A stretch of DNA of 64,000 nt from Luteimonas galliterrae (GTDB lineage: Bacteria > Pseudomonadota > Gammaproteobacteria > Xanthomonadales > Xanthomonadaceae). How positions within the stretch are numbered: position 1 is the stretch's first letter; the number at the start of each line of letters is the position of its first letter. Position numbers and translations under genes: made by a program. The DNA is taken from the NCBI RefSeq assembly GCF_023374055.1, contig NZ_JAMBEP010000001.1:930001-994000 (forward strand), read 5' to 3'. Positions 29,442 through 32,311 of this stretch are shown here, in pieces. Below the pieces are notes generated by a model, which saw only the letters and a program-made list of their open reading frames with translations, ran no database searches and had not been told where the DNA came from.

Positions 29442-29825
29442 ATGCTCGATCATGTCGGCCTTCCGGTTTCCGATTTCGAACGCTCGAAAGCGTTCTATGC
29501 CGCCGTGTTCGCGCCGCTCGGCTATAGCTTAGTGATGGAAGTGACCCCGGAGATGACCGGCGACGGTTCCAGCGCGGCAGGCTTCGGCAAAGGCAAACCG
29601 GATTTTTGGATCGGCACGCACGACAAGCAGGCGCGCACCCACGTCGCCGTCGCCGCCGCGGACCGCGCCGCCGTGCGCGCCTTCTACGAAGCCGCGATCG
29701 CCGCCGGCGCCAAAGACAACGGACCGCCCGGGCTGCGGCCGCATTATCACGAGAACTACTACGGCGCGTTCGTCCTTGATCCGGATGGCCACAACATCGA
29801 AGCGGTCTGTCACGCACCGGAATAA
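29442..29825 (+). CDS. VOC (glyoxalase-fold) family protein
   Basis: A 127-residue protein beginning MLDHVGLPVSDFERSKAFYAAVFAPLGY, a typical glyoxalase/bleomycin-resistance fold, with DPDGHNIEAVCH at the C-terminus. H4 and the C-terminal Glu in NIEAV occupy the usual metal-ligand positions. The reaction is unknown. It follows the hydratase gene by 3 bases, so it belongs to the liu transcript. A DUF559 cassette begins 8 bases after its stop. Confidence 0.85.
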   Translation: MLDHVGLPVSDFERSKAFYAAVFAPLGYSLVMEVTPEMTGDGSSAAGFGKGKPDFWIGTHDKQARTHVAVAAADRAAVRAFYEAAIAAGAKDNGPPGLRPHYHENYYGAFVLDPDGHNIEAVCHAPE

Positions 29826-29832
29826 GGCTTGA

Positions 29833-30299
29833 AGCCCTCCCCTTCAAGGGGAGGGTTGGGTGGGGATGGTTTTAAACGCCGGAAAGCCGCATGGAGCCCG
29901 CATGGATGGTCAGACAAACAGAAAAATCCTCGGCGCCAAATTGCAGCGGCAACTACGCAACATGCCGACGGATGCGGAACGCCTTATGGCAACGACTACG
30001 CGCCAGACAGCTCGACAACGCGAAATTCAGACGCCAACACCCCTTTGATGACTACATACTCGACTTCGCTTGCCTCGAACGGACGATCGTTATCGAACTT
30101 GACGGAGGCCAGCACGCTGACGCTGCCGACTACGATGCCAAACGCACTGCCACGCTAGAAAAAGCAGGCTTTGTCGTACTCAGGTTCTGGAACAATGAAG
30201 TATTCGAAAATATGGATGGAGTGCTTGAAGTGATTTGGACGACATTGCGCGCGAGAGCAAAACCATCCCCACCCAACCCTCCCCTTGAAGGGGAGGGCT
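29833..30299 (+). mobile_element. DUF559 cassette bounded by perfect 41-bp inverted repeats
   Basis: Left repeat 29833-29873 and right repeat 30259-30299 are exact inverses of each other over 41 bases. Each itself contains a hairpin (CCCTCCCCTT-C-AAGGGGAGGG) and the text GGTTGGGTGGGGATGG. The 385-base interior carries a frameshifted DUF559 endonuclease-like gene. No target-site duplication is obvious and no transposase is present. The cassette lies between two genes of the liu operon, in the same orientation, and its right end supplies the SD sequence of the next gene. Confidence 0.75.
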
Positions 30300-30301
30300 A
30301 A
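29902..30301 (+). pseudogene. DUF559 (Vsr-like endonuclease fold) gene with a frameshift
   Basis: The N-terminal part (from 29902: MDGQTNRKILGAKLQRQLRN, then MPTDAERL) and the rest (WQRLRARQLDNAKFRRQHPF, DFACLERTIVIELDGGQHA, RFWNNEVFENMDGVL) are in different frames. They meet at 29985-29987, where CTT-A-TGG breaks the expected AERL(L)WQRLR run. Joined, they give a full DUF559 protein of about 125 residues, with the E-x-DGGQH nuclease-like core. The C-terminal residues come from the right inverted repeat. A sequencing error or programmed shift could produce the same picture. Confidence 0.75.
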
Positions 30302-30305
30302 AAGC

Positions 30306-32311
<2,006 letters not shown>

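Follow-up and report, generated by a model that had tools for sequence, protein, structure and literature searches.

A DUF559 Nuclease-Like Gene Between Inverted Hairpin Repeats in Luteimonas galliterrae: A Probable Gene-Bearing Unit of a REP/REPIN-Like System

Introduction

REP-type palindromes are common bacterial repeats, and in the part of the literature covered here the RAYT tyrosine transposases are the only enzymes that have been tied to them. In RAYT systems the type of the repeat matches the type of the enzyme, and the repeats are scarce where the RAYT is missing; RAYTs are said to sit at fixed sites and to follow vertical descent. Another repeat family, BoxC, is given in the covered portion of one source with a length of 56 bp and 32 known copies in its table (PMC2267715).

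Proteins of the DUF559 family have been reported in other settings. In the covered portions of the respective sources, YcjD was linked to Vsr earlier by profile comparison (PMC1189080), the Caulobacter DUF559 protein VsrA was read as a mismatch-repair endonuclease of the very-short-patch type (PMC12907096), and in Legionella a segment carrying a transposase and a DUF559 protein, present in three copies, was described as a hotspot of mutation and recombination (PMC12308824). No paper tying DUF559, COG2852, PF04480 or YcjD to REP-like repeats was found in the portion of the open-access literature covered.

The stretch of DNA analysed here, referred to as the window, comprises 64,000 nucleotides of Luteimonas galliterrae (NCBI RefSeq assembly GCF_023374055.1, contig NZ_JAMBEP010000001.1, positions 930,001 to 994,000 of the forward strand), and its coordinates are counted from its first letter. 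The original prediction for this DNA, made from the letters alone, was that a DUF559 gene and the repeats around it form one mobile unit, analogous to REP/RAYT systems but with an endonuclease-like protein in place of the tyrosine transposase.

Structure of the Element and of the Encoded Protein

It had been claimed that the gene is enclosed by perfect 41-bp inverted repeats, each itself a hairpin, and that its C-terminal codons run into the right repeat. Both points were borne out, and the features of the element are as follows.

29827..29873, forward strand: left inverted-repeat arm, with a perfect 41-nt core at 29833–29873 (arm comparison)
29835..29855, no strand: left 21-bp palindrome (hairpin) with its C-rich arm facing outward and its G-rich arm inward (repeat search, folding)
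29856..29872, forward strand: left inward G-rich tail, TTGGGTGGGGATGGTTT (sequence; tail consensus over many loci)
29860..30048, forward strand: short ORF in which the DUF559 domain begins, in a different frame (ORF list; by eye against the L034 protein)
29891..30301, forward strand: DUF559 ORF of 136 aa, last 14 residues from the right repeat (ORF list, Pfam)
30062..30115, forward strand: conserved D...E-x-D...H of the PD-(D/E)XK-like core, DFAC ... IELDGGQH (alignment of relatives)
30259..30305, reverse strand: right inverted-repeat arm, with the start codon of the following gene immediately after it (arm comparison)
30277..30297, no strand: right 21-bp palindrome (hairpin) (repeat search, folding)

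The two arms (29827–29873 and 30259–30305) are 47 nt long and 96% complementary, their perfect 41-nt core lying at 29833–29873 and 30259–30299, and as the ends of a unit of ~480 bp (29827–30305) they have the DUF559 ORF between them. Each arm consists of a 21-bp palindrome and an inward G-rich tail and forms a hairpin; single-strand folding of the arms gave −10.6 and −10.5 kcal/mol, with z of −2.3 and −3.1. A GTAG end is absent from the window sequence at 29827–29873 and 30259–30305. The flanking genes, named by eye, are a VOC/glyoxalase-like gene at 29442–29825 and a biotin-carboxylase-like gene with its start codon at 30306; both can be read through whole, and there is no intron, intein or interrupted gene around DUF559. 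The ORF list of the window gives no sign of a second gene between the repeats, and consequently none of a DDE or HUH transposase inside the unit.

The ORF at 29891–30301 matches Pfam DUF559 (PF04480) with an E-value of 4e-36 and 123.5 bits against a curated cut-off of 20.6, covering only positions 17–108 of the 109 of the profile, and its last 14 codons (AKPSPPNPPLEGEG) are supplied by the right repeat. The proline-rich C-terminus that had been noticed in DUF559 proteins thus corresponds to repeat read as codons in the window and, by eye, in the Luteimonas copy L190. The beginning of the domain (..LQRQLRNMPTDAER..) is found, by eye, in a different frame within the ORF at 29860–30048, for which no Pfam match was obtained when it was searched alone. 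An intact DUF559 copy occurs at the same site in another genome of the genus (L034), and comparison by eye of the ORFs with the L034 protein indicates that the window gene is frameshifted, so that the window copy is probably dead or dying.

The invariant residues of DUF559 include the D, the E-x-D and the H of a PD-(D/E)XK-like core. By sequence, 3hrl (E 2e-39) is a solved relative and 3r3p (E 0.004) a weak one. A Luteimonas relative was modelled with AF2 (pLDDT 83), and in Foldseek the model retrieved 3hrl and the catalytic domain of I-Bth0305I, 3r3p (E 8e-5); a related catalytic domain of the I-Bth0305I type is therefore indicated by both sequence and Foldseek. Vsr came lower, with 1cw0 (E 0.04, prob 0.99) ranked under 3hrl and 3r3p and E-values for 1cw0 and 1vsr in the range of 0.04–0.07, and on this model the indication of a Vsr fold for DUF559 is weak but consistent.

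Repeats in the Genome of L. galliterrae

The source genome carries five DUF559 loci. By eye, inverted hairpins surround DUF559 at four of them (L001, L003, L004 and L005), in four different sequences, with the two arms of any one locus matching each other; the fifth (L002) has, also by eye, a hairpin pair on one side. The window palindrome is present at 19 places in this genome (≤2 mismatches), the reversed pattern at 0, and the same 19 matches appear on each strand because the pattern is palindromic. Among these 19 palindromes there are 6 gene-free strict inverted pairs, 71–88 bp apart, against 0.015 expected, and three further pairs near L012, L014 and L017 have a partner that is, by eye, diverged. 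Two of the REPIN-like doublets were folded and gave z of −7.0 and −5.9. As in REP/RAYT systems, the window repeat thus forms many palindromes, often as inverted pairs (REPINs).

Some details of the repeats are worth recording. At L010, L011 and L012 (centre, ~1350–1700), gene-free G-rich doublets lie, by eye, within an outer inverted repeat (GTAGAGCGGAGC-like), an arrangement suggestive of the insertion of one REP-like element into another. An extra small hairpin (GGCCCGAAGGGCC-like) is placed between the main hairpin and the G-rich tail at L001 (1410–1470 and 1840–1895), and the arms of L061, L024, L076 and L081 likewise have a small hairpin of this kind before the G-rich tail.

Inverted-Arm Layout Across Relatives

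The family sample consisted of 59 genomes from 46 genera, 39 of which carry DUF559, and 72 loci remained after four weak matches had been left out and two pairs of rows had been merged into one locus each. Arms were counted when the inverted score was at least 15 within 350 bp on each side. By this measure, inverted arms accompany DUF559 at 48/72 family loci, compared with 0/30 RidA control loci from the same genomes. In the phylum-wide sample, which represents 28 new loci among the matches listed, they were found at 11/28 best-hit loci. For named genomes of several phyla, 52 of the 74 loci from the best 80 of 580 matches have arms, against 0/63 in the outer-window control of the same best 80 of 580; five loci with short flanks were left out here, and L237 was dropped on account of a run of N (raw count 53/75). 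Within the best 80 of 580, the record titles of the passing loci refer to alpha-, beta- and gammaproteobacteria and to deltaproteobacterial/Desulfobacterales lineages, as well as to Nitrospirae, Chloroflexi, Planctomycetota and Gastranaerophilales, and since many named loci are metagenome bins, single taxa among them may be misbinned.

Unrelated genes (RidA), outer windows and permutations served as nulls. They took the place of a mispaired-flank null, which was discarded with 0/72 loci above its 99th percentile, as orthologous loci share flanks and repeats and make such a null useless. The built-in E. coli control returned no PF04480 match, yet ycjD of K-12 is annotated as DUF559; some members of the family may therefore escape the genome search.

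The orientation of the hairpins is constant. GC-rich hairpins occur within 250 bp on both sides at 76 of 164 loci, on one side at 64 and on neither at 24. Of the 216 hairpins at these loci, 211 have a C-rich outer stem arm and 0 a G-rich one, and the consensus of the inward tail over many loci is TTGGGG(T)G(A/G)GGG. C-rich outside was likewise found in 30/30 hairpins of the phylum sample. Control hairpins are few and have no polarity bias (C-rich outside in 0/10 for RidA and 1/4 for Y1). Direct-orientation scores of at least 15 were also obtained at 27/72 family, 11/28 phylum and 1/30 RidA loci, scores that are raised because each arm is itself palindromic. The constant polarity answers this objection better than the arm scores do, and in the phylum sample hairpin polarity is the only support for the inverted layout.

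Two further observations may be added. At L224, from a Planctomycetota bin, DUF559 has on either side two direct copies of the entire hairpin-plus-tail arm. A number of DUF559 matches belong to open frames of great length (>1200 aa), possibly as fusions with larger proteins.

Correspondence Between Repeat Type and Gene Type

The original prediction proposed searching genomes for the repeat with and without DUF559, and would have given way if the two showed no association beyond chance. The association found is far above chance, and that objection is clearly removed. The window-type 24-mer has 6–11 copies in 5/5 family genomes with the window DUF559 clade and reaches at least 3 copies in 1/54 other genomes (p 1.2e-6, a value that ignores shared ancestry); its reversed form, which is a valid control, does so in 0/59 genomes. 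The exception is G058, with 5 window-type copies and no window-clade gene, whose DUF559 remnant is nearest to the site-B genes.

The site-B repeat, counted by a 22-mer with ≤2 mismatches, gave a similar picture. At least 3 copies were present in 15/15 genomes with a site-B gene or remnant (median 35), in 13/24 genomes with other DUF559 matches and in 1/20 genomes without DUF559, 17 of which had zero; G039 has 11 site-B copies and no DUF559, and these counts likewise take no account of shared ancestry. Because this pattern is nearly its own reverse, the reversed pattern is no control, and the presence or absence of DUF559 was used. In one other genus (20 genomes), 16 genomes with site-B DUF559 have 42–111 query matches, flank matches included, and the four without DUF559 have 81, 22, 3 and 2 (p 0.012, again ignoring shared ancestry); the one with 81 matches, G389, has a site collapsed to one hairpin (L285).

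Arm and protein sequences also diverge together. Over 91 loci with clear arms, giving 3938 pairs with same-site pairs excluded, the Spearman coefficient between arm and protein divergence was 0.255, the best of 999 permutations being 0.179. Nearest-neighbour co-divergence was weaker, with a mean of 0.507 against a null mean of 0.438 and a null maximum of 0.507. The number of repeat copies per genome runs from a few to about 150. It can be seen that cognate repeats are many where the gene sits and mostly few where it is absent, and that the type of DUF559 repeat follows the type of enzyme, as is the case for REP/RAYT.

Fixed Sites, Relocation and Empty Sites

Orthologous sites common to several genera hold many of the DUF559 loci, and the DUF559 tree mostly groups by site, with the exception of site A, which holds two clades. 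Judged from the sequences, the genes appear to be inherited mostly vertically at fixed sites. The original prediction of repeated movement of the unit therefore stands only in part: most copies keep to their orthologous sites, but relocation of gene plus repeats does occur now and then. L028 lies at site A, yet has a window-clade protein and repeats with the tail kind of that clade; L046 has a site-E-clade protein and site-E-like arms at a different site; and L024 and L068 share clade and repeat at different sites (the likeness of the repeats was judged by eye in all these cases). What multiplies is the short gene-free inverted hairpin pair and not the unit with the gene. Fixed DUF559 genes without flanking repeats had been named as a finding that would speak against a mobile unit, and they exist in part, as 15 of the 21 DUF559 genes at site A have no flanking inverted repeat.

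Three of four genomes of the genus have the element at the window site, and in other genera the two flanking genes abut without it. In one genus, sites without DUF559 are either empty (L286–L288) or collapsed to one hairpin (L285, G389). A second collapse, in which a gene-free doublet is reduced to a single hairpin, is seen in L335 compared with L334. Empty and filled sites were compared, as had been suggested; their junctions are too diverged for a target-site duplication or an exact element end to be fixed at them.

Neighbouring arrangements vary as well. In G354, of the same genus, a different short gene, which we take to be a GxxExxY-like reading frame (by eye), lies between the same two neighbours (L149:1040–1500). 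In G201, from another family, a window-clade DUF559 is found on the opposite side of the VOC gene (L145:1170–1370), where it adjoins a window-type inverted hairpin pair and is not inside it.

The ycjD Gene and a Probable BoxC Repeat of E. coli

By annotation, ycjD of E. coli K-12 is a DUF559 gene, and a 56-bp repeat adjoining it has, by eye, the same hairpin-plus-tail layout. This repeat is found in 5376 of 5426 E. coli genomes, at a median of 19 places per genome, and the fabI-ycjD-sapF stretch is covered to at least 80% in 3362 of the 5426, so the repeat is present in more genomes than ycjD. Around ycjD itself there is no inverted arm pair (score 6), and a degenerate hairpin lies at the 3' end. 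From its length and copy number, the 56-bp repeat probably belongs to BoxC. In NZ_CP028755 (L332) and NZ_CP043950 (L333), ycjD is missing beside fabI, and a TetR-family regulator gene and an RND efflux adaptor gene are there instead; as these two empty ycjD sites hold other genes, no clean element boundary was found at them.

Proposed Mechanism and Alternative Explanations

The inverted layout, the constant polarity, the matching of types and the scattered gene-free pairs are features of the sequences themselves. In view of them, we consider it likely that the window contains the gene-bearing unit of a REP/REPIN-like system in which the enzyme is DUF559, a PD-(D/E)XK nuclease resembling Vsr and I-Bth0305I. 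The repeat consists of a hairpin, made up of a C-rich arm, a loop and a G-rich arm, with a G-rich tail behind it, and the gene stands between two such repeats in facing orientation. In the mechanism proposed, the DUF559 protein may recognise its cognate hairpin together with the tail, in single-stranded or cruciform form, and may nick or cut next to the hairpin, whereupon repair or replication would copy the short paired element elsewhere or convert copies into one another. The gene copy would pass on mostly vertically, in a RAYT-like manner, and would move with its repeats now and then; recombination between the two palindromes could delete the gene and leave a single-hairpin scar.

One alternative, which we regard as unlikely though worth weighing, is that the REP-like repeats are independent and that DUF559 is a homing-type parasite, inserting or being exchanged in pre-existing pairs without propagating them. 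The pair L029 and L074 (same genus, site B, ~1450–1890) fits this reading: the flanks are 93% and 96% identical and the repeat is identical at 42/42 positions, yet the DUF559 genes share only 64% DNA and 60% protein identity, which suggests either that the gene was exchanged inside its repeats or that it evolved very fast. The collapsed site L285 and the empty sites L286–L288 beside filled ones, the presence of a homing endonuclease among the nearest solved relatives, and the ability of the repeats to outlive the gene, as in G389, are in keeping with it too. It does not account for the cognate repeats being mostly missing where the matching gene is missing, nor for the co-variation of arm and protein sequence across sites, both of which are expected if the protein maintains the repeats and does not only invade them.

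It is improbable that DUF559 is a host repair enzyme of the Vsr type, with the hairpins acting as terminators, regulators or processing sites and nothing mobile. Long residence at fixed sites, the structural likeness to Vsr 1cw0 and the reading of Caulobacter VsrA as a very-short-patch repair protein in the covered part of that report (PMC12907096) would agree with such a role. Terminators, though, are not expected to stand as inverted copies on both sides of a gene with gene-free copies elsewhere, and the hairpins differ by gene clade and occur in a few to about 150 copies per genome; empty sites also exist.

The possibility that the repeats are ordinary REPs driven by RAYT, with DUF559 as a passenger, has already been largely refuted and keeps very little probability. 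Y1 (RAYT-like) transposase genes occur in 38 of the 59 family genomes, and of the genomes with DUF559, those that also have Y1 contain more site-B repeats (p 0.014), as this reading would have it. Y1 loci carry other repeats, however: inverted arms flank 16 of the 28 tested, GTAG occurring in 6 of those 16, and GGGAGAGGG lies within 500 bp of 1/30 Y1 loci as against 44/72 DUF559 loci (1/30 for RidA loci). Moreover, the genomes with Y1 and without DUF559 have zero site-B copies in 9/9 cases, and those with DUF559 and without Y1 have at least 3 in 4/10. RAYT was accordingly rejected as the mobiliser, and the RAYT/GTAG and DUF559 systems appear to run side by side in the same genomes.

It is barely credible that DUF559 serves in restriction or against phages as the nuclease of a cassette with recombining repeats, since the PD-(D/E)XK fold and a weak match, below the cut-off, to MTES_1575 (restriction-enzyme-like in Pfam) are set against the absence of an apparent second gene between the window repeats and against PADLOC, which for three proteins gave two without a match and one with a weak 14.8-bit match to a large Hhe protein, a result on which a defence system was rejected.

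Returning to a REP/REPIN-like system with a DUF559 enzyme, the wider proposal, towards which the evidence inclines somewhat, is that DUF559 nucleases and G-rich-tailed hairpins make up a second, independent class of bacterial REP, spread over several phyla, co-existing with RAYT/GTAG REPs and perhaps taking in repeats for which no mobiliser is known so far, E. coli BoxC with YcjD being an example. If true, the proposal would assign a role to the widespread DUF559 nucleases, whose function has been unknown or in dispute, and would point to a possible mobiliser of further repeat families; it would also provide a second natural experiment on tiny repeats that persist with a resident, mostly vertical enzyme. 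The finding bears as well on the DUF559 proteins that have been read as mismatch-repair enzymes.

Comparison with Known Systems

Among nucleases, the catalytic domain of I-Bth0305I (3r3p) has the same fold as DUF559 according to Foldseek, with a weak match in sequence, but the window gene is enclosed by hairpin repeats, has a complete gene on either side and is not in an intron or intein. Vsr (1cw0, 1vsr) has a related fold, and DUF559 differs from it in being flanked by cognate repeats. MITEs and IS elements with TIRs resemble the unit in their terminal inverted repeats and gene-free short copies, whereas the ends of the window unit are themselves hairpins, no transposase gene is apparent and no target duplication was recognised. 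BoxC is similar in that the ycjD repeat has a hairpin-plus-tail form of 56 bp, and differs in that there is no inverted pair at ycjD.

The closest likeness is to REP/REPIN-RAYT systems (REPtrons), which, in the covered portions of their descriptions, have short intergenic palindromes, often in inverted pairs, and an enzyme gene inside its own repeats (Bertels & Rainey 2011, PMC3116915; Di Nocera 2013, PMC3733652). The DUF559 repeats share the inverted pairs and the placement around the enzyme gene; their type follows that of the enzyme, and they are scarce without it. The analogy drawn in the original prediction is accordingly supported by the inverted pairs, the matching of types and the low number of repeats without the gene. 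The differences lie in the enzyme, a PD-(D/E)XK nuclease-like DUF559 protein compared with an HUH tyrosine transposase, and in the repeats of the window, which have no GTAG end and carry a G-rich inward tail instead. As both the enzyme and the GTAG end set it apart, the DUF559 system is to be regarded as one that works like REP/RAYT and not as a member of it.
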